NCBI GenBank assembly: GCA_030539275.1
Contig: JAUNSK010000023.1
Span: 1-62,325 of the forward strand
DNA from: Oscillospiraceae bacterium
GTDB lineage: Bacteria > Bacillota > Clostridia > Oscillospirales > Ruminococcaceae
Length of the DNA: 62,325 nt
Reading direction: 5' to 3'
Of this stretch, positions 7,599 through 18,630 are shown piece by piece. Under the pieces are notes generated by a model, which worked only from the letters and a program-made list of their open reading frames with translations, was not told the DNA's origin and ran no database searches. Every line of letters starts with the position of its first letter. Position 1 is the first letter of the stretch. Both the position numbers and the translations under genes were made by a program.

Positions 7599-9047
7599 AT
7601 GCCGCTTAACCAGAACTATGCTCCGCTTTATGAAGCAATGAGAAACTTCCGCATCAACAGAGTTGTCCCCTTTGACGTGCCAGGTCACAAAGGCGGAAGA
7701 GGAAATCAGGAACTTACTGATTTTCTTGGGATCAACTGTATGAAAGCTGACGTAAATTCTATGAAACCGCTTGACAACCTCTGTCACCCGGTTTCAGTTA
7801 TAAAAGAAGCACAGGCGCTTGCAGCCGAAGCATTCGGCGCAAAAAATTCCTTTTTTATTGTCAACGGCACTACCGGATCGGTTCAAGCAATGATAATGTC
7901 CGTATGCAAGGAAAACGATAAGCTTATCATGCCGAGAAATGTACACAGAAGTGCGATCAACGCACTGGTTGTAAACGGTGCAGTTCCTGTATATGTAAAT
8001 CCCGGTGTCAACAAAGAGCTTGGAATTCCTCTGGGAATGAGTGTAGCTGATGTTGAAAAAGCCATTAAGGAAAATCCTGATGCCAAAGCAGTTCTTATTA
8101 ATAATCCCACTTACTATGGTGTGTGCTCTGATCTGAAAGCAATCGTTGAACTTGCCCATAAACACAATATGATGGCACTTGTTGACGAAGCTCACGGGAC
8201 ACACTTTTATTTTGGAGAAAATATGCCGGCGAGCGCAATGAGTGTCGGCGCAGACATGGCTGCTGTAAGCATGCACAAATCAGGCGGATCCCTGACACAG
8301 AGTTCAATCCTCCTTCTCGGAGACTCTGTCAATGCAGACTATGTCCGTCAGGTTATCAATCTTACACAGACCACAAGCGGTTCATATCTGCTTATGTCAT
8401 CGCTTGATATTGCCCGTAAAAACCTTGCGATGAACGGCAGACAGATATTCAGCAAGGCAGTTGAGTATGCACAGTACGCAAGAAATGAGATCAATAAAAT
8501 AGGCGGCTATTATGCTTTCGGATCTGAACTTAAGGATAATGATGCATTTTTTGATTTTGATAAGACAAAATTATCAGTCAATACTATTAATATTGGTCTT
8601 GCCGGAATCGAAGTATATGACCTGCTGCGTGATGAATACAATATCCAGATCGAATTCGGTGATATCGGAAACATTCTTGCCTATATCTCAGCCGGTGACA
8701 GATCTCTTGAAATAGAGCGTCTTATCTCAGCTCTGAGCGAGATCAAACGCAGATATTCAAAAGACAGATCCGGAATGTTTGATCATGAATATATCAATCC
8801 GCAGGTTGTCCTTTCACCTAAGAAAGCATTCTTTTCTGACAAAACAACTACAGCACTTGATAAATGTTCAGATATGATATGCGGTGAATTTGTAATGTGT
8901 TATCCTCCGGGCATACCGATACTTGCACCAGGTGAGAGAATTACCAGGGAAATAATTGACTATATAAACTATGCTAAGGATAAAGGCTGTTTTCTGACCG
9001 GTACACAGGATATGTCTGTTACTTCACTTCAGACAGTAAATATATAA
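7599..9047 (+). CDS. speA: Biosynthetic arginine decarboxylase (PLP fold type I, B. subtilis SpeA-like)
   Basis: Orn/Lys/Arg decarboxylase of the short, aspartate-aminotransferase-fold type (482 aa). VPFDVPGHKGG at the N-terminus, VNGTTGSVQAMI (PLP phosphate region), DEAHGTHF and the PLP lysine in SMHKSGGSLTQ (K227) are visible. The family includes arginine, lysine and ornithine decarboxylases; arginine is preferred here because agmatinase is encoded two genes downstream, giving arginine to agmatine to putrescine. AGGAGG precedes the ATG. Substrate specificity cannot be read from sequence alone. Confidence 0.88.
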   Translation: MPLNQNYAPLYEAMRNFRINRVVPFDVPGHKGGRGNQELTDFLGINCMKADVNSMKPLDNLCHPVSVIKEAQALAAEAFGAKNSFFIVNGTTGSVQAMIMSVCKENDKLIMPRNVHRSAINALVVNGAVPVYVNPGVNKELGIPLGMSVADVEKAIKENPDAKAVLINNPTYYGVCSDLKAIVELAHKHNMMALVDEAHGTHFYFGENMPASAMSVGADMAAVSMHKSGGSLTQSSILLLGDSVNADYVRQVINLTQTTSGSYLLMSSLDIARKNLAMNGRQIFSKAVEYAQYARNEINKIGGYYAFGSELKDNDAFFDFDKTKLSVNTINIGLAGIEVYDLLRDEYNIQIEFGDIGNILAYISAGDRSLEIERLISALSEIKRRYSKDRSGMFDHEYINPQVVLSPKKAFFSDKTTTALDKCSDMICGEFVMCYPPGIPILAPGERITREIIDYINYAKDKGCFLTGTQDMSVTSLQTVNI

Positions 9048-9074
9048 AAAACATATTTGATAAGGAGCGGTAAA

Positions 9075-9929
9075 ATGGATCTTTGGTACACAGAACGTCA
9101 TACAGACGACGTTAAATTTTCCATACGGGTAGACAGGCAGCTTGCATCATATACCAGTGAATTTCAGAGAATAGATATTTTTGAATCTAAAGAATTCGGC
9201 AGAATACTGACGCTTGACGGTTATCTTATGGTAACGCAGAAGGATGAATATATCTACCATGAAATGATTACCCATGTACCTATGGCCACAAATCCGGACA
9301 TTAAAAATGTTCTTGTAGTCGGCGGCGGTGACGGCGGAACAGTCCGCGAACTATGCAGATATAAAAGCATAGAAAATATCGATATGGTTGAAATAGATGA
9401 AATGGTTGTGAAGCTCTGCAAAGAATACATTCCATCAATATCATGTGCCCTTGATGATGAACGGGTACACATCTATTATGAGGACGGCATGAGATTTGTA
9501 CGTACTACAGAGGATTCTAAATATGATCTGATAATAGTTGATTCCACTGATCCGTTCGGCGTGGGAGAAGGTCTGTTTACCAAAGAATTTTACGGCAACT
9601 GCTATCGTTCACTGAATGATAACGGAATACTTGTCAATCAGCACGAAAGCACATTCTATGATTCCTATGCAAACTCTATGAAGAGAGCACACAGCAGGAT
9701 AAAAGAATTTTTCTCTACAGCGCTTGTCTATCAGGCTCATATCCCGACATACCCTTCAGGACACTGGCTCTTCGGTTTTGCTTCAAAAAAATACGATCCT
9801 AGAACTGATCTGCACGCTGACTGGTGGAACAGTCTGGGACTTAAAACCAGATATTATAATACTGTACTCCATACCGGATGCTTTGCTATCCCTAACAATG
9901 TACGTGATGTATTGCGTGAAACAAAATAA
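9075..9929 (+). CDS. speE: Spermidine synthase (polyamine aminopropyltransferase)
   Basis: Transfers the aminopropyl group of decarboxylated SAM to putrescine, giving spermidine and methylthioadenosine. 284 aa, the usual length. It has the N-terminal beta domain (LWYTERHTDDVKFSIRV), the Rossmann core VLVVGGGDGGTVRELCRY, the acidic ribose-binding strand VEIDEMVV, and the catalytic region DLIIVDSTDPFGVGEGLFT. Start is ATG 9075 with AAGGAG at 9062-9067; a start at 9057 would lie before the Shine-Dalgarno. The by-product MTA is a substrate of the nucleosidase encoded at 45652-46329. The acceptor diamine could differ (see the dual-route finding). Confidence 0.92.
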   Translation: MDLWYTERHTDDVKFSIRVDRQLASYTSEFQRIDIFESKEFGRILTLDGYLMVTQKDEYIYHEMITHVPMATNPDIKNVLVVGGGDGGTVRELCRYKSIENIDMVEIDEMVVKLCKEYIPSISCALDDERVHIYYEDGMRFVRTTEDSKYDLIIVDSTDPFGVGEGLFTKEFYGNCYRSLNDNGILVNQHESTFYDSYANSMKRAHSRIKEFFSTALVYQAHIPTYPSGHWLFGFASKKYDPRTDLHADWWNSLGLKTRYYNTVLHTGCFAIPNNVRDVLRETK

Positions 9930-9949
9930 GAAAGGAAGTAGTACTTAGC

Positions 9950-10804
9950 TTGAACAAAAACATCCACACTTTTATCGCTTGTGACAGTGAATACTCTGAC
10001 AGTCAGATCGTTCTGTTCGGAGCACCGTTTGACAGCACAACCTCTTACCGGCCTGGTACACGATTCGGAAGTTCTGCAATAAGAAATGAAAGCTTCGGAA
10101 TAGAGACCTACAGTCCATACACAGATCTTGATCTTTCCGATACAAATATCTTTGATGCCGGCGACCTTGAACTATGTTTCGGAAGCAGCGAAAAAGCTCT
10201 TGCTGACATTGAAAAAACTGCAGATACGATTCTTAATGACGGCAAAATTCCGTTTATGATAGGCGGAGAACACCTTGTAACACTTGGTGCTGTAAGAGCA
10301 GCATTTAAAAAGTACCCGGACCTTCATATTATTCATTTTGATGCTCATGCAGACCTGAGAGAAGATTATCTTGGTGAACCTCTTTCACACGCAAGTGTCA
10401 TGAGAAGATGCTATGATATTCTGGGCGACAACAGGATTTTTCAGTTTGGCATACGCAGCGGTGACAGATCAGAATTTGTCTGGGGTAAAAATCACGTATT
10501 TACAAACAGATTTAACTTTGACAACCTCGAAAAGGTCATTTCAATGCTCAGGGACAAACCTGTTTACTTTACTCTTGACCTCGATGTCCTTGACCCGTCA
10601 GTTTTCTGCGGAACAGGTACACCTGAAGCAGACGGAGTATCCTTCAGAGAACTTCTTAATGCCATTACAAAGATTTCCAAGCTTGACATAGTAGCACTTG
10701 ACATGAATGAACTGTCTCCGGTATATGACCAGAGCGGCGCTTCTACAGCACTAGCCTGCAAACTGCTGAGAGAGATTCTTCTTCTCATCTATAAATTCAA
10801 CTAA
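9950..10804 (+). CDS. speB: Agmatinase (ureohydrolase)
   Basis: Binuclear manganese hydrolase converting agmatine to putrescine and urea. Metal-binding motifs of the ureohydrolase family are complete: GGEHLVTLG, HFDAHADLRE and FTLDLDVLDPSVFCGTGTPE. 284 aa is the normal length. The start is TTG 9950 with AAGGAAG 11 nt upstream; no ATG near it fits. It lies 20 nt after speE and 20 nt before the saccharopine dehydrogenase-like gene, consistent with co-transcription. Confidence 0.92.
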   Translation: MNKNIHTFIACDSEYSDSQIVLFGAPFDSTTSYRPGTRFGSSAIRNESFGIETYSPYTDLDLSDTNIFDAGDLELCFGSSEKALADIEKTADTILNDGKIPFMIGGEHLVTLGAVRAAFKKYPDLHIIHFDAHADLREDYLGEPLSHASVMRRCYDILGDNRIFQFGIRSGDRSEFVWGKNHVFTNRFNFDNLEKVISMLRDKPVYFTLDLDVLDPSVFCGTGTPEADGVSFRELLNAITKISKLDIVALDMNELSPVYDQSGASTALACKLLREILLLIYKFN

Positions 10805-10824
10805 TATTAGGAGGAACAAATAAA

Positions 10825-12024
10825 TTGGGTAAAGCTTTAATTATTGGTGCTGGCGGAGTTGCCAGTGTTGTTGTACACAAATGCTGTCAGAACAGCGAAG
10901 TTTTCACAGACATATGCATAGCCAGCAGAACAAAATCGAAATGTGATGCACTCAAAAACAAGCTTGACGGCGGCAAAACCAATATCACAACTGCTCAGGT
11001 CGACGCTGACAATGTCAGTGAACTTGTAGCTCTTATGAAAAACTATAAACCTGATATTGTTATCAATGTTGCACTTCCGTATCAGGATCTTACTATCATG
11101 GATGCATGTCTTGAATGCAGGGTTGACTACGTTGACACAGCAAATTATGAACCTCTCGATACTGCTAAGTTTGAATACAAGTGGCAGTGGGCATACAGAG
11201 AAAAGTTTAAACAGGCCGGCATTACAGCACTCCTCGGAAGCGGCTTTGATCCTGGCGTAACAGGAGTATTTTCTGCTTATGCGCTCAAACATTATTTTGA
11301 TGAGATCCATTATATAGATATTCTTGACTGCAACGGAGGAGATCACGGATATCCTTTTGCTACAAACTTTAACCCTGAAATAAACATTCGTGAAGTATCA
11401 GCTAACGGAAGCTATATTGAAAACGGTGAATGGATCGAAACAAAACCGATGGAGATCAAGCGTGAATATGATTTTGACGAAGTCGGAATGAAGGATATGT
11501 ATCTTCTCCACCATGAAGAACTGGAATCACTTGCACTCAACATTACAGGGATCAAGAGAATCAGATTTTTCATGACTTTCGGTCAGAGCTATCTTACACA
11601 TCTCAGGTGTCTTGAAAACGTAGGCATGACATCTATCGAACCTATTGATTTTGAAGGCAAAAAGATCGTACCTCTGCAGTTTCTGAAAGCTGTCCTTCCT
11701 GATCCTGCATCACTCGGTCCTAGAACAAAGGGAAAGACAAATATCGGCTGCATTTGCCAGGGTGTCAAGGACGGTAAACCGGTTAAATACTATGTATATA
11801 ACGTATGTGACCATGAAGCTTCTTACAAAGAAGTAGGATCACAGGCTATTTCATATACAACAGGCGTTCCTGCAATGATCGGCGCTATGATGGTCATGAC
11901 AGGAAAATGGAAAAAACCTGGTGTATTCAACATCGAGGAATTTGATCCGGATCCGTTTATGGATGCTCTCAACAAATGGGGCCTGCCATGGAAGGAAAAC
12001 TTTGATCCTGTACTCGTTGACTAA
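10825..12024 (+). CDS. Carboxy(nor)spermidine dehydrogenase (saccharopine dehydrogenase-like)
   Basis: NAD(P)-dependent enzyme expected to condense a diamine (putrescine or diaminopropane) with aspartate semialdehyde and reduce the imine to carboxyspermidine/carboxynorspermidine. The N-terminus KALIIGAGGVASVVVHKC is a Rossmann GxGGV loop, and the whole 399-aa protein reads as the LYS9/saccharopine dehydrogenase family, with the conserved GFDPGVTGVFSAYA segment. Start TTG 10825 with AGGAGG upstream. The decarboxylase that completes the route (nspC) follows 17 nt later, which is the main reason for this call over saccharopine or homospermidine metabolism. Confidence 0.88.
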   Translation: MGKALIIGAGGVASVVVHKCCQNSEVFTDICIASRTKSKCDALKNKLDGGKTNITTAQVDADNVSELVALMKNYKPDIVINVALPYQDLTIMDACLECRVDYVDTANYEPLDTAKFEYKWQWAYREKFKQAGITALLGSGFDPGVTGVFSAYALKHYFDEIHYIDILDCNGGDHGYPFATNFNPEINIREVSANGSYIENGEWIETKPMEIKREYDFDEVGMKDMYLLHHEELESLALNITGIKRIRFFMTFGQSYLTHLRCLENVGMTSIEPIDFEGKKIVPLQFLKAVLPDPASLGPRTKGKTNIGCICQGVKDGKPVKYYVYNVCDHEASYKEVGSQAISYTTGVPAMIGAMMVMTGKWKKPGVFNIEEFDPDPFMDALNKWGLPWKENFDPVLVD

Positions 12025-12041
12025 ACAGAAAGGGCTTTGGG

Positions 12042-13190
12042 ATGCTTAACTTTGATATTAACTCCATAAAAACTCCATGCTTCGTTGTTGACGAAAATCT
12101 TCTGAAAAAAAATCTTGAAGTTCTTAAGTCTGTCGAAGACAGAACCGGATGCAAAATACTTCTTGCACAAAAATCTTTTTCCATGTACTCGTTATATCCT
12201 ATGATCTCTGAGTATCTCTGCGGAACAACAGCAAGCGGGTTATACGAAGCCAGACTTGGATATGAAGAAATGGGAAGGCCTTTCTACAAGGAGACTCATA
12301 TCTTCTCCCCTGCTTATATTGAAGAAGATTTTGATGAGATATTAAAGTACTGCGATCATATAGTCTTTAACTCACTTCGTCAGTGGAATATGTTTAAGGA
12401 CAGAGTAAAAGACAGCGGTAAAAAAATCGAATGCGGAATCAGAATTAATCCTGAATACTCAGAGATTGAAACTGACATCTATAACCCATGCTTCACAGGT
12501 TCAAGGCTGGGAGCACTTGCACAGACTTTTGAAGGACAGTCTCTTGACGGTATATCCGGACTTCACTTTCATACCATGTGTGAACAGAATTCGGACACGC
12601 TTGAGAGAACAATAAAAGTTGTAGATGAAAAGTTCGGCAGATATCTTAAAAACATGAAGTGGATCAACTTCGGAGGCGGTCATCATATTACAAGGGATGA
12701 CTATGATATAGATACACTTTGCAGATGCATAATGCACTTTAAAGATAAATACGGTCTTCAGGTTTATCTTGAACCCGGTGAAGCTGTTGCACTTAACGCC
12801 GGATTTATGGTCACTACTGTACTTGATACACTTAAAAACGGCTGTGATATAGCCATAATAGATGCTTCGGCTGCATGCCATATGCCGGATGTAATTGAAA
12901 TGCCGTACAGACCCAACATAATAAACAGCGGTATGCCCGGTGAAAAAAGGATCACCTACAGACTCGGTGGAAATACATGTCTTGCTGGTGATATAGTCGG
13001 TGATTATTCATTTGACAAGGAACTTGACCCCGGAGATAAACTTGTACTATGTGATATGGCTATTTATTCAATGGTCAAAACAAACACATTTAACGGTATG
13101 AAGCTTCCGTCTATTGCAGTATGCCATAGTGACGGCACAGTAGAAACGGTAAGAACATTCGGTTACGGGGATTTTAAGTGCCGATTATAA
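12042..13190 (+). CDS. nspC: Carboxynorspermidine/carboxyspermidine decarboxylase
   Basis: PLP enzyme of the alanine-racemase-fold (group IV) decarboxylases; removes the carboxyl group of carboxyspermidine to give spermidine. 382 aa, normal for NspC. Recognisable parts are TPCFVVDENLLKKNL, the PLP lysine segment KILLAQKSFSMYS, GLHFHTMCEQ, the glycine loop INFGGGHHI and EPGEAVALNAGF. It has AAAGGG before the ATG. It is the last gene of the operon, closed by a strong hairpin at 13194-13231. Confidence 0.92.
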   Translation: MLNFDINSIKTPCFVVDENLLKKNLEVLKSVEDRTGCKILLAQKSFSMYSLYPMISEYLCGTTASGLYEARLGYEEMGRPFYKETHIFSPAYIEEDFDEILKYCDHIVFNSLRQWNMFKDRVKDSGKKIECGIRINPEYSEIETDIYNPCFTGSRLGALAQTFEGQSLDGISGLHFHTMCEQNSDTLERTIKVVDEKFGRYLKNMKWINFGGGHHITRDDYDIDTLCRCIMHFKDKYGLQVYLEPGEAVALNAGFMVTTVLDTLKNGCDIAIIDASAACHMPDVIEMPYRPNIINSGMPGEKRITYRLGGNTCLAGDIVGDYSFDKELDPGDKLVLCDMAIYSMVKTNTFNGMKLPSIAVCHSDGTVETVRTFGYGDFKCRL

Positions 13191-13193
13191 ACT

Positions 13194-13231
13194 AAAAACA
13201 CCTGCACACATTTCATTGTGCAGGTGTTTTT
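13194..13231. terminator. Bidirectional terminator between nspC and the nucleotidyltransferase gene
   Basis: Perfect 15-bp stem (13194-13208 with 13217-13231), 8-nt loop, T-run on the plus side and A-tract on the other side. It overlaps the 3' end of the minus-strand gene ending at 13213. Confidence 0.9.
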
Positions 13232-14346
13232 GTTTTTTCCGGACTATCTGAGGATTTAGTCAATAATTTAATAACAAGTGATACATTCCTGTGATAAATG
13301 ATAACCATCTTCACCAGCCTGAGGATGAAACATAACCCAACAAGAAACGGAAGCTTATCAAGAACAGGATAATATCCTCTCATCTCAGCCATACCCGGAC
13401 ATAACTTTTTTAAGATAAACTTTACTTTTCCCATAGCCCTGATCTGAGATTCATAATAATTAGTATAGTTTCCATATGTACCGGAATATATTATATATTC
13501 TCCGGCTTCATTGATTTCAACACTGTTTTCAGTATCTGAAAACCAGGTCTCAGCAGTTGAGATCATTTGCAAATAAAAACTGAATACTCCCAGTTGTTTA
13601 AGTTTATTTACTATATATTCCTGGTTAATATGATCACATAATGAATTAAACATCAGATACAGGTCCATAACAGAACGTATTCCGCTTCCGCACGCATTAA
13701 AATGTTTATAAAAATGCATTACATAATAAATAAAGAAATCCTCGTTGCTCATTGAGTGAACATACTTATAGTTATCTGCAGTGCTGAATTGTTCAAATGT
13801 ATTTGTATCATACCCGTGCTTTGCGATCATCTGTTGTGAAAAAAGACTGCGATGAAGTTCAACATTCATAACTGGCGGTTTCTGATAGACATCATGAACA
13901 CCTTTGCCATAGTTTTTGCATGTATACTTAAGACTTTTCAGAACAGACAATGACTTCTCACCACATTCAGGGTCTATCAGATAATCAAGATCCGACATTA
14001 CACGCATATATGACTTAGGATAGTACTTCTTGATGAGAAATCCTTTAAGAGGCATAATTCGTATGTGATTCTCCTCAAATGCATTCATAATCTTTGTGTT
14101 TTCTTCACGCTGTATAATATCCTTCACTATTGCCTTATGCTTTATCTCCAGAAACTGATTCATGATATCATCAGGAGGTTTTATATCAAGTTTTTCTACA
14201 GCGCAGCAGACTGTACATGCTACACTGTTGTGATGTGCAAGCGAGAGAACATCTTCCCAGCAGACATCATCCGGTTTGCATGATGGCTTCTTATCATTAA
14301 CTGCACACCGCAAAAGATATATCAGATATTTACTATTTTCATTCAC
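13213..14346 (-). CDS. Uncharacterised nucleotidyltransferase-family protein (NTP_transf_5 type)
   Basis: 377-aa cytosolic protein with the signature of the uncharacterised nucleotidyltransferase family: MPLKGFLIKKYYP (about 96-108) followed by SYMRVMSDLDYLID, whose D-x-D pair would bind metal. A hydrophobic stretch near the C-terminus (LPFLVGLCFILRLVKMVII) may touch the membrane. Family members recur in RiPP gene clusters, including lasso peptide clusters with HprK-like kinases. Here it is the last gene of the DIITTSG module, 150 nt after the peptidase gene, which suggests modification of the peptides (inference). The start has only a weak Shine-Dalgarno (AAGTGA). Confidence 0.75.
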   Translation of the reverse strand: MNENSKYLIYLLRCAVNDKKPSCKPDDVCWEDVLSLAHHNSVACTVCCAVEKLDIKPPDDIMNQFLEIKHKAIVKDIIQREENTKIMNAFEENHIRIMPLKGFLIKKYYPKSYMRVMSDLDYLIDPECGEKSLSVLKSLKYTCKNYGKGVHDVYQKPPVMNVELHRSLFSQQMIAKHGYDTNTFEQFSTADNYKYVHSMSNEDFFIYYVMHFYKHFNACGSGIRSVMDLYLMFNSLCDHINQEYIVNKLKQLGVFSFYLQMISTAETWFSDTENSVEINEAGEYIIYSGTYGNYTNYYESQIRAMGKVKFILKKLCPGMAEMRGYYPVLDKLPFLVGLCFILRLVKMVIIYHRNVSLVIKLLTKSSDSPEKTKTPAQ

Positions 14347-14454
14347 TTATATAAACCTACATTCTTATCATATATTTTCAGTTTTCGACAAATCTCAGAG
14401 AATTAAACAACACCAGAATACAGATACCTGTTTTTCATGTACCGAAATATCAAT

Positions 14455-14481
14455 GATCCGGTGAAGAGCTGATCTTCCGGA
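14455..14481. other. Hairpin in the 150-nt gap between peptidase and nucleotidyltransferase genes
   Basis: Outer 6-bp stem (14455-14460 with 14476-14481) continued after a 2-nt bulge by an inner 4-bp stem. No T-run follows on the minus strand. The rest of the gap holds no ORF or clear promoter. Confidence 0.3.
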
Positions 14482-14496
14482 TAACTTATTATTTTC

Positions 14497-14934
14497 CTAA
14501 CGTCTTAAGCACTTGTTCCATACACGACGGCAGCTATTTATGAACCACAGCACAAATGCCCTCACCGGAAAAAAAGTACACCATAAAATAACATATGCAC
14601 GATACCGTAAATCATTAACAGTTATAAAACGTCCTTTTGAGTAAAAGCCCGTTGTTACTCCAATGATCCAGCTGTGCGGTACTCTTTCTTTTGTCCATCT
14701 GTTATCACCGCAGGTTATATATTCATTTTTACAAACTTTTATAATACGATGCAGAACATACTTTCCGTCAGGACGTCTGTACAGCGCAATATCATATTTT
14801 TTAAGACATCTGTCCGGTTTTTCAATAACAACCGCATTCTTACGATTTTTAAGCATAGGCTGCATGCTGTCTCCGACAGTAGTCTGAATTATCCTGCCAA
14901 ACCTATCAAGAGTCTCTTCTATGGTACTATTCAT
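14497..14934 (-). CDS. S26B/SipW-type signal peptidase-like protein (S24/S26 family)
   Basis: 145-aa serine peptidase candidate. The box with the nucleophile is VGDSMQPML (S near residue 21); the second catalytic box is YVLHRI, where His replaces the Lys of bacterial LepB, the pattern of S26B (SipW/Sec11) enzymes; CGDNR is the third conserved box. The hydrophobic segment is at the C-terminus (YVILWCTFFPVRAFVLWFI), not the N-terminus, so topology differs from LepB. Start ATG 14934; the preceding codon is TTG (14937). It overlaps the PqqD-like gene, so the two are translationally coupled. Cleavage of the DIITTSG peptides is a reasonable but unproven role. Confidence 0.75.
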   Translation of the reverse strand: MNSTIEETLDRFGRIIQTTVGDSMQPMLKNRKNAVVIEKPDRCLKKYDIALYRRPDGKYVLHRIIKVCKNEYITCGDNRWTKERVPHSWIIGVTTGFYSKGRFITVNDLRYRAYVILWCTFFPVRAFVLWFINSCRRVWNKCLRR

Positions 14935-15193
14935 CAAGAAGATGCAGCTCCCTCAGCTGCATAAGTATTTTATCTATGTCCCCCGAAGCAGTGTCATCAT
15001 CAACATCATATTTGTCAAGCACAGACTCAAGCAATTCTTCTTTGGTCGTTTCAGTCATCAGTTTTCTGAGAATATAATCTGCAGTAGAATTGCTGCGAAT
15101 AAGTCCGTTAAAATATCTGCTGGCTTCACCCGTAGCTACTGCAATAAATTCACCGTTTGAATCATCAGTGATCATTCCGTTTTTAAGTTTCAT
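14927..15193 (-). CDS. PqqD-like peptide-binding protein (RiPP recognition element)
   Basis: 88-aa protein resembling PqqD: N-terminal beta segment (LKNGMITDDSNGEFIAVATG), FNGLIRSNSTADYILRKL and a C-terminal helix ending in LMQLRELHLLD, the normal length of stand-alone PqqD. In known systems PqqD domains bind the leader of a ribosomal peptide and present it to the modifying enzyme. It overlaps the kinase-like gene upstream by 11 nt and the peptidase gene downstream, so all three form one translational unit. AAAGG precedes the ATG. Confidence 0.75.
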   Translation of the reverse strand: MKLKNGMITDDSNGEFIAVATGEASRYFNGLIRSNSTADYILRKLMTETTKEELLESVLDKYDVDDDTASGDIDKILMQLRELHLLDE

Positions 15194-15893
15194 ATTTTTT
15201 ACCTTTCCATGTACTATAAGCTACATCTGCCGCCTCTGCAGACATATTGCATCTGAGTCTGAATAACGCTGCATTATGAGAAAATCTTTTTGTCATACTC
15301 AGAACTCTTTTTACACTATCTGCGCTGTCGGGTCTGAAAGTCTGATTAAGTATAACAGGATATGCATCCTGAGGAGATATCCGTATGCACGAATTATCCT
15401 TAGCCTGCTCAAGGAAAAATACTGCACTGACCGGTGCACTTTCATTATTATCGAGACCATGCTTGCCGCTCCACGGTGTTCCGTATACCAGAGCCTTATC
15501 ATTGTCAAGCATTATGAGTGGCTTATCATCATTAATTATTCTGACACGATCACCGAAACACTGTCTCCACAGTGCTGCATGTGTAGATTTTCCTGTACCG
15601 CTTGGTGCTGTAAACAGGACTGCTTCACCATCTATCTTCAGTGCACTGCAATGAAACAGGATTATATTATCACTTATAAGTCTGGTGCATATTTTCCGGT
15701 AAACTGCCAGGCTCTCAAGATAGCCTGGGTGATATTTTTTTTTGTCCCTGTTTTCATACTCTATTTCCTGAGAAGATACACGGACCGGTGGTATGTCAAT
15801 ATCCCCGGTAATATAATTATGACAAAGTTTTTGTATGTACTGATACCTATTGTCTATGCAGAAATAATGCTGCGCTAATTGTATTGTAAACAT
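15183..15893 (-). CDS. HprK-like P-loop kinase of RiPP-cluster type
   Basis: 236-aa protein with HPr-kinase C-terminal-like P-loop region: FTAPSGTGKSTHAALW (Walker A Lys about K102), RIINDDKPLIM (Walker B-like) and GTPWSGKHG. It lacks the N-terminal domain of true HprK and is unlikely to act on HPr. Related proteins occur with PqqD and nucleotidyltransferases in peptide clusters; one such kinase phosphorylates a lasso peptide (paeninodin). The start lies 4 nt after the stop of the 36-codon peptide gene with no Shine-Dalgarno of its own, so translation is probably coupled to the peptide. Substrate here is inferred from position. Confidence 0.75.
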   Translation of the reverse strand: MFTIQLAQHYFCIDNRYQYIQKLCHNYITGDIDIPPVRVSSQEIEYENRDKKKYHPGYLESLAVYRKICTRLISDNIILFHCSALKIDGEAVLFTAPSGTGKSTHAALWRQCFGDRVRIINDDKPLIMLDNDKALVYGTPWSGKHGLDNNESAPVSAVFFLEQAKDNSCIRISPQDAYPVILNQTFRPDSADSVKRVLSMTKRFSHNAALFRLRCNMSAEAADVAYSTWKGKKYET

Positions 15894-15897
15894 AGGC

Positions 15898-16008
15898 TTA
15901 GTCTATCGGAATAACCGGCAATTCAATAGGATCGCCGCTCGTAGTAATGATATCCTGAGTCTTAAAGATAATACACTCGATCTCAGGGGTCTGATACTGC
16001 TCTTTCAT
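15898..16008 (-). CDS. Short peptide 1 of the DIITTSG family (candidate RiPP precursor, 36 aa)
   Basis: Unannotated-size gene found by reading the gap. ATG at 16008 with AGAGGAT upstream; stop at 15898-15900. The peptide starts MKEQYQTPEIECIIFKTQ, continues DIITTSG and ends DPIELPVIPID. The first 25 residues are strongly similar to peptide 2 (18514-18630): MKE-Y-PE-E-I-FKT-DIITTSG is common, like a leader, while the tails diverge apart from ELP. There is no signal peptide. The next gene, 4 nt on, is the HprK-like kinase, then PqqD-like and peptidase genes. The last nine residues nearly repeat the C-terminus of the lipoprotein encoded just upstream. Confidence 0.75.
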   Translation of the reverse strand: MKEQYQTPEIECIIFKTQDIITTSGDPIELPVIPID

Positions 16009-16027
16009 TTTATATCCTCTCTGACAG

Positions 16028-16474
16028 TTATCCTATCGGGATGACCGGCAATTCAATGGAATTTTTACTATCATTATCATTTAATTTTTCCTGATCTGTA
16101 TTAACATCAGCTGCTGATGTATTATCTTTGTCAGGCTCTGAAGTGTCTTTTTCAGTATCTTTTTCATGTGCAGTTATAATTACATCATCGTAATCGCCGG
16201 AAGTGTTATGTGTTTTATCAGACTCTGCATTATTTTTTTTATCCGGCAATGAATCTTTATTCTCAGATCTGTTATTATCATTGCCGGCATAAGTTTCTGC
16301 CGCATGACCGGATGCCTGAGTTACTGCGCTGTCAGATGATATATATGTCTCAGTTTCAGATGAACTTGTCTGATCTGTTGAATTTCTCAGATTTTTTTTC
16401 TCATTCATGCAGCCGCAAAACGCTGTGAACATCATGACTGTCATTAAAACAGGTATTGTATTTTTATATTTCAT
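16028..16474 (-). CDS. Lipoprotein-like secreted protein with peptide-1-like C-terminus
   Basis: 148 aa. The N-terminus MKYKNTIPVLMTVMMFTAF is a signal peptide followed by CGCMNEKK, a plausible but not perfect lipobox (FCGC). The rest is low-complexity, rich in Ser, Thr, Asp, Glu, Asn and Lys, and likely disordered; no known domain. The final residues SIELPVIPIG match the end of peptide 1 (PIELPVIPID), and 22 of the last 27 coding bases agree, pointing to a shared origin. It lies between the large secreted protein and peptide 1 in the same orientation. AAAGGA is 13 nt before the ATG. Function unknown. Confidence 0.65.
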   Translation of the reverse strand: MKYKNTIPVLMTVMMFTAFCGCMNEKKNLRNSTDQTSSSETETYISSDSAVTQASGHAAETYAGNDNNRSENKDSLPDKKNNAESDKTHNTSGDYDDVIITAHEKDTEKDTSEPDKDNTSAADVNTDQEKLNDNDSKNSIELPVIPIG

Positions 16475-16564
16475 CGTATTAATTTATTCCTTTTAATAAA
16501 TCAGGTATATTGACTTATATGTTATGATGATTACTGCAATTATTGCAATGACGTGGTCCTTCAC

Positions 16565-18334
16565 TTACGTTAAAGAATCTGCATACAGTTGTGACTGTTT
16601 CCCGTAATCGTAAAGTGCACATACAAGATTTCTGTATTCCTGATCGACTGTATCAGAGTTAATGACAGATTTTATATATGCATTTACATTGTAGTTTCCA
16701 TAGACTGTGCTGTCGAAAATAAAACTCTTCAATGCTCCGAAGTCTGCAGGTGATATTTTTGTGTCAAAATAATAATTTTCTTCGCCGTCTATTGTTTTCG
16801 TCCCTGTATATCCGATCGGTGTATATCCGGTAGGTGCATTGTCTGATACAGTAAAATAATGACGTATGATCACCTGTGATTTTAACAGAAGACTTGTACC
16901 GTTATATTTAAGACATTCTGAACCGTGCATTGTATTTGGTGCATCCTGGACCCCCTGATTAACAGTATCTTCATCTGAAATGTTCTTTTGTACACCTTCA
17001 TTTGCCGGATTCTCAGTATTGTGTTTAAAGTATTTCTGTGAAGCTGCTCCATAGTTGAGTATTGCACTGACAAGGTCATGCTGCGCTGAATAATCCTCTT
17101 TTTTAAGGATATTACTGCAGTATTCTTTTACTGAATATTCTGTTTTCTTTGTGAGCAGAGTATCATCATCTCTGCCTTCCTTTCCTGACGGACTAAAGAA
17201 CTGAACAGATATCTTATCAGACATATTTTTAGCAGGAACTGAATATGGTACTTTGTATCTGCCATCCGGTAATTTTGTCATATCACTTACATCCAGATAC
17301 TCAACGTCTGAAGTCGTTTCATCAGTAAGTTTTGCATATGCTCCGGGTATTGTTTTCAGCAGAGTCATATAAAAATTAAGATCAATATTATTATCTGACA
17401 ACGTCAGACTTGCTGACATGTCACCCACGTACTCAGGAACTATTTTTATGCAGTGAATAAGTGAACCATCCTGTACTGACCTATATTCATCGTGATTATA
17501 ATAGAATTCACAGGGTTGGGGATCATCATGATGTTTATATGCAAATACAGTGCCGTTTATCTCTGCCTCAGGGGATGACGAAATTGCACTGACTGTACTG
17601 TAACAAGATAATGAACCGCCTTGAACATTTATCACAGGATTCTCTACCTTATCTGAAGTAAACATAGTCAGACCTACACCATTCCAGAATTCTCCCAAGA
17701 CAAGATTTCCTCTTAATAAGTTCAGACTGTCAGTACAATAAACTGTTTTCATGATAAGTGATGAATCATCTGTTGATCCTTTGAAAGTCGCATTAGAAAC
17801 TTTCATTGCATCTGTTAAACTTATTGAGCAATTACCATCAAACTCGATTGTCACATTTTCAGGGAACCTCATATATTCAATATATGTAATATTACAGTTA
17901 TCTAAAGTAAGTGTATTTGATACACTGTCATAAGTCCAGTCGTGCAGAACTTCATCTCCCCTGCTGTTGCCATTTCCATAGTATACGCCCTGGTACTGAG
18001 AAAAATCGCAGCGTGCAGCACAACCTTCCAGATATACAATGTTATTTTCAATTTTTTCAACTGTGCATTGTTGTTTTATAACGGCTGTGCCATCTGAAAA
18101 AGTCATCAGGTCAAAATCAACAAATATTGTAATGCCGCCGCCTTCCACTACAACATCATCTGCTTCAAGGATCATGCCTACACTCAGAGCATCGGCTGAT
18201 TCAGGATCACATGAATACTCCTGTGCATAAATTTTTGTATCTGACAGATGTAATACTGTAGTATTTACAGTAAGCAAACATGATACTGTCAGTAAGGATA
18301 TAAGTATGTTTCTTACTCTTTTAGTTTTTTTCAT
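16565..18334 (-). CDS. Large secreted protein of unknown function within the peptide module
   Basis: 589 aa with a signal peptide (NILISLLTVSCLLTVNTTV). About residues 60-270 look beta-rich and repetitive (NTLTLDNCNITYIEYM, VTIEFDGNCSISLTD), like the carbohydrate-binding/polymer-like domains of clostridial surface proteins. The C-terminal half (about 305-589) has two copies of an L-V-x-A-L-x-x-YG-x-x-SQ motif (LVSAILNYGAASQKYF and LVCALYDYGKQSQLYA), so it contains a duplication or a bipartite domain. There is no LPXTG, dockerin or transmembrane anchor. TAAGGAGTG precedes the ATG. It is downstream of peptide 2 across a terminator-like hairpin; whether it is part of the module or merely embedded is open. 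Confidence 0.7.
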   Translation of the reverse strand: MKKTKRVRNILISLLTVSCLLTVNTTVLHLSDTKIYAQEYSCDPESADALSVGMILEADDVVVEGGGITIFVDFDLMTFSDGTAVIKQQCTVEKIENNIVYLEGCAARCDFSQYQGVYYGNGNSRGDEVLHDWTYDSVSNTLTLDNCNITYIEYMRFPENVTIEFDGNCSISLTDAMKVSNATFKGSTDDSSLIMKTVYCTDSLNLLRGNLVLGEFWNGVGLTMFTSDKVENPVINVQGGSLSCYSTVSAISSSPEAEINGTVFAYKHHDDPQPCEFYYNHDEYRSVQDGSLIHCIKIVPEYVGDMSASLTLSDNNIDLNFYMTLLKTIPGAYAKLTDETTSDVEYLDVSDMTKLPDGRYKVPYSVPAKNMSDKISVQFFSPSGKEGRDDDTLLTKKTEYSVKEYCSNILKKEDYSAQHDLVSAILNYGAASQKYFKHNTENPANEGVQKNISDEDTVNQGVQDAPNTMHGSECLKYNGTSLLLKSQVIIRHYFTVSDNAPTGYTPIGYTGTKTIDGEENYYFDTKISPADFGALKSFIFDSTVYGNYNVNAYIKSVINSDTVDQEYRNLVCALYDYGKQSQLYADSLT

Positions 18335-18417
18335 ATCTTCACACTCCTTAATATCATAAAAGAACCGTCCCAGTTTTTGTTAGGTTTACTATTAACCGCA
18401 ACACCCCACCTGCTGAC

Positions 18418-18450
18418 AAAAAAGCCCCGACCGACTTGAAATTGAGGCTT
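18418..18450 (-). terminator. Attenuator/terminator between peptide 2 and the rest of the module
   Basis: Minus strand: 7-bp stem with one G-T pair (18444-18450 with 18422-18428), 15-nt loop, then six T (18418-18423). It would let peptide 2 be made in excess of the downstream genes, a usual arrangement for peptide precursors. Confidence 0.55.
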
Positions 18451-18513
18451 TATATTGTGATTAATTATAATTTACAAATCAGAAAAATGTGAGTTTTCTG
18501 ACAGTGGTAAGTA

Positions 18514-18630
18514 TTAAATTTCCGGATCGACCTTAGGAAGTTCATCATCGTCCAAACCGCTTGTTGTAATAATGTCTGCTGTTTTGAATTTAATTACTTC
18601 CATCTCAGGATTGATGTATTTTTCTTTCAT
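18514..18630 (-). CDS. Short peptide 2 of the DIITTSG family (candidate RiPP precursor, 38 aa)
   Basis: ATG at 18630 with AAAGGAG 9 nt upstream, the best ribosome binding site in the module; stop at 18514-18516. The peptide begins MKEKYINPEMEVIKFKTA, continues DIITTSG and ends with the acidic tail LDDDELPKVDPEI. Residues 1-25 align with peptide 1 without gaps, sharing MKE, Y5, P8, E9, E11, I13, F15-T17 and D19-G25. No signal peptide, no Cys in the tail, and no Lys/Arg cleavage pair. It is the first gene of the minus-strand unit and has its own promoter and terminator-like hairpin, as expected for an abundant precursor. Confidence 0.75.
   Translation of the reverse strand: MKEKYINPEMEVIKFKTADIITTSGLDDDELPKVDPEI

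Follow-up and report, generated by a model that had tools for sequence, protein, structure and literature searches.

The window analysed here, a stretch of 62,325 nucleotides from an Oscillospiraceae bacterium, contains a compact group of genes that, taken as a whole, is probably a RiPP module of LPP-like type, in which short precursor peptides would be bound by a PqqD-like RRE, phosphorylated on Ser24, cleaved by an S26-type peptidase and further modified by an NTP_transf_5 protein. The LPPs, or linear polyphosphorylated peptides (lppAKBSDN of Paenibacillus alginolyticus), were published in May 2026 (PMC13381572). The present module is a Clostridia variant resembling them rather than a strict member, since its leader motif differs and a search of the genome turned up no ortholog of the MsbA-like exporter.

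Organisation of the locus

All of the module genes lie on the minus strand in the ORF listing of the window, and the features are given here in descending order of position.

18514..18630, minus strand: precursor peptide 2, 38 aa (ORF; leader profile 4.7e-15 in own genome; ribosome binding site AAGGAG by eye)
18421..18451, minus strand: likely terminator 3' of peptide 2, an 8-bp stem with one G-T followed by a T run (by eye; absent from the computed hairpin scan, whose limit its loop exceeds)
16565..18334, minus strand: secreted protein, 589 aa, signal sequence by eye, no Pfam match
16577..17422, minus strand: C-terminal domain (~281 aa) of the 589-aa protein (profile match 1e-71, residues 305-586)
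16028..16474, minus strand: lipoprotein, 148 aa, rich in S/T/D/E/N, lipobox FCGC, end NSIELPVIPIG
16031..16063, minus strand: lipoprotein tail NSIELPVIPIG, a near-repeat of the peptide 1 tail (29/36 aligned bases identical, including the stop codon)
15898..16008, minus strand: precursor peptide 1, 36 aa, predicted leader MKEQYQTPEIECIIFKT, then QDIITTSGDPIELPVIPID
15937..15939, minus strand: Ser24 codon of peptide 1, predicted phosphosite (Ser in 62/64 peptides; analogy to LPP Ser3)
15183..15893, minus strand: HprK-like kinase, 236 aa, with H81, K102, D122, D123 (conservation; HKDD motif of lasso kinases)
14927..15193, minus strand: PqqD-like RRE, 88 aa, with N35, Y62, D72 (PF05402, 8.4e-12; profile alignment to LppB, 9x8z)
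14497..14937, minus strand: S26-type signal-peptidase-like leader peptidase with S24, H63, D78 (conservation; sub-cutoff NCBIfam matches)
13213..14346, minus strand: NTP_transf_5 nucleotidyltransferase-like protein, 377 aa (PF14907, 1.9e-45; D119, D121)
13193..13232, both strands: bidirectional terminator-like hairpin closing the module (computed hairpin scan)

The first-pass annotation had described two short ORFs with a common N-terminus and good ribosome binding sites, the first of them followed by these four enzyme and binding-protein genes, and in this it was right: the peptides are identical at 18 of 25 ungapped positions (72%), the binding sites are purine-rich (AGAGAGG in the case of peptide 1, again by eye), and peptide 1 is followed by the genes for the kinase, the PqqD-like RRE, the S26-type peptidase and the NTP_transf_5 protein. 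The overlaps claimed for these genes are only partly borne out, as the kinase and PqqD genes, and the PqqD and S26 genes (counted from the TTG start of S26), overlap by 11 bp each, but the kinase starts 4 bp after the end of peptide 1 and the NTP_transf_5 gene overlaps nothing, being preceded by a 150-bp gap. Two further genes in the interval, for the 148-aa lipoprotein and the 589-aa secreted protein, went unmentioned there.

Conserved residues in the enzymes

In the Pfam search, the NTP_transf_5 and PqqD proteins gave the clear matches listed above, the S26 protein gave none, and the kinase gave only a sub-cutoff P-loop match. NCBIfam yielded sub-cutoff matches only, to signal peptidase (2.4e-7) and also weakly to SipW for the S26 protein, and to ScmC (1.6e-11) and HprK_rel_A (6e-4) for the kinase. 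These place the kinase in the same superfamily as SynChlorMet ScmC (TIGR04249) and HprK-related kinase A (TIGR04352), but its scores of 44.1 and 19 bits fall far short of the respective cutoffs of 125 and 200.

The residues to be expected in active proteins of these kinds are well conserved. Kinase residues H81, K102, D122 and D123, which correspond to the HKDD motif reported for lasso kinases, are kept in 29, 29, 27 and 29 of 29 sequences respectively; D119 and D121 of the NTP_transf_5 protein are kept in 17/17, and peptidase residues S24, H63 and D78 in 29/29. The catalytic residues of LppS are S29, H68 and D93 (PMC13381572), and the spacing from Ser to His is 39 in both peptidases; however, that from His to Asp is 15 here as against 25 in LppS, so that D78 can only be assumed to be the counterpart of D93. 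In the RRE, N35 (26/26), Y62 (21/26) and D72 (23/26) align, when the family profile is compared with LppB (9x8z), with N33, Y60 and D70, which hold the leader Tyr and Pro. The same profile matches lasso RREs better than it does LppB (1.8e-7 for TbiB1 against 3.1e-4), and in phmmer searches of the PDB with single sequences neither PqqD nor kinase found a match, only the PqqD alignment reaching LppB. Another PqqD gene, an orphan some 18 kb away from a PF13471 match on contig C9, was set aside on inspection by eye.

The leader and the predicted phosphosite

A profile search found the leader in 28/297 family genomes, and because the same leader recurs in this way the pair of peptides in the window is not a chance occurrence. 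Its consensus here is YxxPExE...F[E/D][T/S]xDVITTS, the counts over 64 peptides being 60 for Y5, 51 for P8, 60 for F15, 43 for E/D16, 37 for T/S17 and 62 for Ser24. The 64 exclude profile domain matches whose E exceeds 0.05, among them five weaker ones in kinase loci (L044 twice, L049, L053 and L057); the DVITTS block is missing from those of L049 and L057 at least. Part of the conservation must be due to selection, given that loci were included for having a kinase or leader match and that it was the leader profile that identified the 64 peptides.

The first-pass annotation had proposed modification either of the TTS residues or of the acidic tail. Of the TTS residues, the Ser finds support: Ser24 is the predicted phosphosite, on the strength of its near-invariance and by analogy with LPP, where the kinase is reported to accept Ser and not Thr or Tyr (PMC13381572). 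The acidic tail is an unlikely place for the phosphate, because neither window peptide has any S, T or Y past Ser24, a property found in 13/64 peptides in all.

Conservation falls sharply after position 24, which is followed by G or N in 37/64 peptides, and this raises the question of whether cleavage might occur just there (ITTS/G). Signal peptidases favour small residues at -1 and -3, and such residues often occupy those positions relative to this site. Ser24 would then belong to the leader, with the kinase marking the precursor transiently or acting elsewhere. Such an arrangement is rather unlikely, as the LPP peptidase cuts after F-E-T and the phosphorylated Ser lies downstream (PMC13381572), while in the 13 peptides just mentioned the mature product could then carry no phosphate.

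In the preferred scheme, where binding, phosphorylation and cleavage are proposed by homology, the PqqD-like RRE would bind each short peptide by its YxxP leader and present it, and the HprK-like kinase would phosphorylate, probably polyphosphorylate, the invariant Ser24. Cleavage after F-x-T (position 17) would fall to the S26/SipW-like peptidase, which is probably anchored in the membrane by a hydrophobic segment at its C-terminal end, and would leave a linear acidic phosphopeptide, for peptide 1 QDIITT-pSer-GDPIELPVIPID. The NTP_transf_5 protein may attach a sugar or a nucleotide to the phosphate group. For the corresponding protein LppN no activity was visible in the LPP study (PMC13381572).

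Comparison with LPP and lasso peptide systems

Several features are common to LPP (PMC13381572) and the present module: a kinase, a discrete RRE, a SipW-like SpI leader peptidase and an NTP transferase, forming a core set without a cyclase; precursors (35-200 aa in LPP, 36 and 38 aa here) in which the N terminus is conserved and the C terminus varies; and a leader with YxxP, an FET-like motif and a downstream Ser. However, the LPP consensus is YxxPxVLxHQxIxFETxxS, from which the leader here differs in the VLxHQ part, HQ being lacking, and its spacings from Y to F and from F to S are 10 and 9 rather than 13 and 5 (PMC13381572). On both counts the predicted cleavage site is uncertain. The cores here are also shorter than that of LppA (45 aa; PMC13381572). 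The description of the peptides as a distinct class needs qualification: a RiPP-like module, with phosphorylation as the likely modification, stands, but it is not wholly distinct, the same enzyme set having been published as LPP.

The phosphorylated lasso peptides paeninodin and pseudomycoidin likewise involve an HprK-like kinase, a PqqD protein (B1), a [YW]xxP leader and, in pseudomycoidin, a nucleotidyltransferase (PMC9266682), but the present module has neither cyclase nor B2, the predicted Ser is internal rather than C-terminal, and the leader peptidase is of S26 type. The presence of HprK, PqqD and nucleotidyltransferase genes in known lasso clusters might suggest an ordinary lasso cluster with its cyclase elsewhere in the genome. 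The sole PF13471 match in the genome adjoins reverse-transcriptase-like and transposase-like ORFs, and inspection by eye of the 7.5 kb around it revealed no cyclase. The module has none either. Lasso ring formation requires a D/E acceptor at core positions 7-9, and counting from G25 neither core has one. With no cyclase in the module and no ring acceptors in the cores, the lasso reading was rejected as extremely improbable.

Co-occurrence with the kinase

Leader peptides found widely without the kinase, the pattern that the earlier reading regarded as speaking against it, are not what was seen within the family: 26 of the 28 leader-bearing genomes among the 297 have the kinase (about 4 by chance), and two have no kinase match. 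In several loci a peptide directly adjoins the kinase, and leader genes, of which there are up to eight per genome in the family set, often lie away from the enzymes. A leader search over a class-wide set of 391 genomes gave 29 loci (L195-L223), which were inspected over up to 1.5 kb on each side; a kinase is visible in 4/29 of these stretches.

The question of export

That the module contains no lasso cyclase and no transporter was confirmed at the locus, where no exporter was found. In its genome, a search with a single query (L070) gave no ortholog of the LppD-type (MsbA-like) exporter at 1e-50, the top match having 25% identity; this is a further difference from LPP (PMC13381572). As two genus mates have an LppD ortholog (49% identity), the module in this genome might be non-functional or decaying, its exporter lost and its precursors undelivered. 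This is a little less likely even than cleavage after Ser24, since both peptides and the remaining enzymes are intact and retain their conserved residues, and an exporter match at 1e-50 is likewise lacking in four further genomes that carry leaders and enzymes (G114, G126, G201 and G205), one of them a single contig. ABC ORFs of at least 500 aa occur in 16/52 kinase loci.

Association with surface proteins and the ELPxxP tail

The start of the leader gene lies within 100 bp of an ORF of at least 300 aa in 43/64 cases, as against 55/1500 for random short ORFs, and the adjoining ORF is often a secreted protein with the 281-aa C-terminal domain (upstream of peptide 2, by contrast, the same strand is free of genes for 400 bp). 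There are 64 copies of this domain in 26/297 family genomes. When all 64 places of the domain are set against all 69 of the leader, 31/64 copies have a leader gene downstream in the same orientation at a distance of at most 1 kb, and 33/64 have no leader within 1 kb. The 33-ORF set from the domain profile search includes an 87-aa ORF (L126) that is probably spurious. Against the PDB the domain gave nothing useful (best E 0.77), and against Pfam three families with one weak match each among 24 members; it is undescribed.

This arrangement could be taken to mean that the short ORFs encode small accessory subunits of surface proteins, unprocessed, with the enzymes serving some other substrate, and the distance of many leaders from the enzymes and the two leader genomes with no kinase match would fit. 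It is very unlikely, however, in view of the co-occurrence in 26/28 genomes and of the loci where peptide and kinase adjoin, and because YxxP and F-x-T suit the needs of the RRE and the peptidase.

Lipoproteins adjoining the system mostly end ELP[FV][VI]Px, and peptide 1 ends ELPVIPID. [ED]LP occurs in 13/64 cores (shuffle mean 1.8, reached in 0/2000 shuffles), and LPx[h][PD] ends 15/2225 ORFs of 80-260 aa, 12 of the 15 being low-complexity lipoprotein-like genes of the system. The likeness between the tails of peptide 1 and the lipoprotein could be a functionless local duplication of DNA, which would be compatible with the LPP-like explanation; the 29/36 identical bases and a peptide fused in frame to a lipoprotein in L065 are in keeping with this, but it is unlikely on balance, the tail motif recurring on low-complexity lipoproteins of other genomes and on peptides.

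Precursors scattered behind surface-protein genes, with lipoproteins of matching tail, set this system apart from LPP, for which the available portions of PMC13381572 mention no such link, and searches of one open-access library found neither the leader motif nor the surface-protein link in print. Gene order suggests that the peptide product may serve the surface protein of the adjoining gene, and that the ELPxxP tail of peptides and lipoproteins may be a common binding or recognition element. A broader and tentative picture, possible but with the chances rather against it, is of a Clostridia-wide surface assembly in which one trans-acting phosphopeptide machine would serve many scattered precursors, each encoded directly after an adhesin-like secreted protein of its own. 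Once mature, the phosphopeptide would be that protein's dedicated partner, whether as tether, as ligand or as maturation factor, and the ELPxxP lipoproteins would act as membrane-side anchor or receptor for the C-terminal domain.

Implications

The roles of LPPs and paeninodins are stated to be unknown, with co-localisation with capsule loci and speculation on biofilms being mentioned (PMC13381572). The Clostridia branch gives a sharper and testable hint at the role of LPPs, its precursor genes being found repeatedly just behind genes for large secreted proteins, in part adhesin-like, and next to lipoproteins with the same tail. It suggests that LPP-like production within one genome may be a matter of one machine with many substrates, and it makes the undescribed C-terminal domain a candidate partner of the peptides.

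Gene organisation

The module (13213–18630) is real and looks intact, and we think it probable that it is a variant of a kind of peptide published in 2026. The two short ORFs and four downstream genes around which the first-pass annotation had proposed a compact RiPP-like module are all present where it had placed them, on the minus strand, and in an ungapped alignment the peptides share 18 of the 25 residues of their N-terminal leader. Two further genes within this interval, the lipoprotein and secreted protein genes below, had gone unmentioned.

15898–16008, minus: peptide 1 (36 aa)
16028–16474, minus: lipoprotein
16565–18334, minus: 589-aa secreted protein
18514–18630, minus: peptide 2 (38 aa)

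The kinase/PqqD and PqqD/S26 junctions each overlap by 11 bp, and the NTP_transf_5 gene starts 150 bp beyond the gene preceding it. Peptide 2 lies isolated ahead of the other module genes, in a unit closed by what, judged by eye, is likely a terminator, and a terminator-like hairpin, detected on both strands, stands at the module end. Pfam assigns NTP_transf_5 and PqqD, while for the kinase and the S26 protein NCBIfam yields weak, sub-cutoff matches only. Convergent with the module is an apparent polyamine block (7599–13190), whose genes were named by eye as decarboxylase, spermidine synthase, agmatinase and carboxynorspermidine-type enzymes.

Comparison with linear polyphosphorylated peptides

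Linear polyphosphorylated peptides (LPP), as described in 2026 (PMC13381572), are defined by a kinase, a discrete RRE, a SipW-like peptidase, an NTP transferase and an MsbA-like exporter; there the kinase places phosphates on core Ser3 but not on Thr or Tyr at that place, and the peptidase cuts, assisted by the RRE, after F-E-T. The leader of the window family differs in having no HQ block and in its spacings, and no exporter was detected in the window genome. The exporter search of this genome returned 12 ABC matches, the best at 25% identity and none at 1e-50; exporter orthologs of relatives are 45–61% identical to the query, and genus mates G003 and G004 possess one. Because four further genomes with leader and enzymes (G114, G126, G201 and G205), one of them a single contig, also have no exporter at 1e-50, the exporter-less form seems to recur among genomes and not to reflect incomplete assembly, provided that no diverged exporter escaped the search. 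We call the module LPP-like, not LPP proper.

Distribution

Among 297 same-family genomes, 46 have the kinase at E up to 1e-5 and 28 have the leader at E up to 1e-3; the two occur together in 26, against about 4 expected (hypergeometric 1e-22, treating genomes as independent despite kinship). In G186 and G289, the two leader genomes with no kinase match, the leader itself matches weakly, at best with 2.5e-5 and 2.3e-4 respectively. Across the class, leader matches occur in 37 of 391 genomes, our own counted, with a maximum of 16 per genome. A set of 52 loci with the kinase was made up of L006, L007 and 50 regions in genomes of the family, with L008 and the window excluded. In it we counted PqqD in 36, S26 in 35, NTP_transf_5 in 16, leader in 15 and an ABC ORF of at least 500 aa in 16; because searches used single queries and contigs end, these may be minimum figures. 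The kinase copy of genus mate G004 that adjoins a leader peptide (L062:6704–7171) is broken by a stop; another copy, at L078, has none.

Predicted phosphosite and cleavage

The enzymes of the window family keep the kinase His, Lys, Asp and Asp in 29, 29, 27 and 29 of 29, and the peptidase Ser, His and Asp in 29 of 29; at the positions of N33, Y60 and D70 of LppB, the LPP RRE, Asn is found in 26, Tyr in 21 and Asp in 23 of 26. Among 64 leader peptides gathered with the leader profile (five weaker, more divergent kinase-locus peptides being excluded), Tyr5 is conserved in 60, Phe15 in 60, Asp19 in 62 and Ser24 in 62, with Thr22 (44) and Thr23 (46) more variable than Ser24. Given the LPP precedent and these conserved enzyme and leader residues, we predict with moderate confidence that Ser24 is phosphorylated and that the peptide is cut at F-x-T, after residue 17; the main rival to cleavage at residue 17 is a cut after Ser24 itself.

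Kinases of the same family also stand beside radical SAM-like ORFs (assigned by clustering, with Pfam on L044 and L053 only) at L044, L048, L053, L063, L064, L066, L068 and L087. Near L044, L048, L053 and L087 are precursors whose leader is similar but whose cores contain Cys, possibly a hybrid RiPP type. Contig C9 of the window genome carries an orphan PqqD-like gene (L228:4978–5238, 86 aa), around which no kinase or peptidase was recognised by eye among listed ORFs of at least 85 aa, and a transglutaminase-like (PF13471) gene (L225:4926–6692), behind a reverse-transcriptase-like ORF and close to a transposase-like one, a possible retron or defence element as judged by eye.

The ELP tail

The window lipoprotein ends in NSIELPVIPIG and peptide 1 in DPIELPVIPID, with 29 of 36 bases identical. 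An LPx[h][PD] C-terminus occurs in 15 of 2225 ORFs of 80–260 aa in the fetched loci: 12 are S/T/D/E/N/Q-rich (50–71%) proteins beside this peptide system (a lipobox is matched in 10), and the other three are one leader peptide and two spurious-looking ORFs. Of the 64 cores, 13 contain [ED]LP, where shuffling gives 1.8 on average, and at L065:6960–7502 a lipoprotein ORF runs in frame into a second leader (DVITTS) and an ELPIIPIR tail. The simplest reading is that the tail is a candidate common binding element of peptides and lipoproteins. A further ELP core is seen in a class relative (L223:779–1231), where both members of a tandem leader peptide pair carry a C-terminal GGIELPPDWV.

Gene-order link to surface proteins

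A 281-aa C-terminal domain with no known counterpart in Pfam or PDB is common to the window's secreted protein and, in the fetched loci, 32 further ORFs, of which one is probably spurious. The domain occurs in 6 of 29 class-level stretches and, in 64 copies, in 26 of the 297 family genomes; the leader is present as well in 21 of these 26. A same-strand leader gene lies within 1 kb downstream of 31 copies (within 71 bp for 24), and the other 33 have none in that range. Of the 64 leader genes, 43 start no more than 100 bp from an ORF of at least 300 aa; for short ORFs drawn at random from these loci the figure is 55 of 1500. For the 55 leaders with an ORF of at least 120 aa just upstream (up to 400 bp), the upstream ORF has the domain in 31 and, by a crude ad hoc score, a signal-like hydrophobic stretch in 37.

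Thirty domain-bearing proteins include BspA-type leucine-rich repeats (8), papain-type peptidase (2), transglutaminase (2) and single matches to adhesin-type domains, none of which was matched by the window's own 589-aa protein; five of ten upstream proteins that do not have the C-terminal domain have InlB-type repeats or LRR above curated cutoff. A surface function of the peptides, as read from gene order, is a tentative suggestion that we hold to be rather unlikely as yet; what deserves pursuit in the module is its link, by gene order, to surface proteins.
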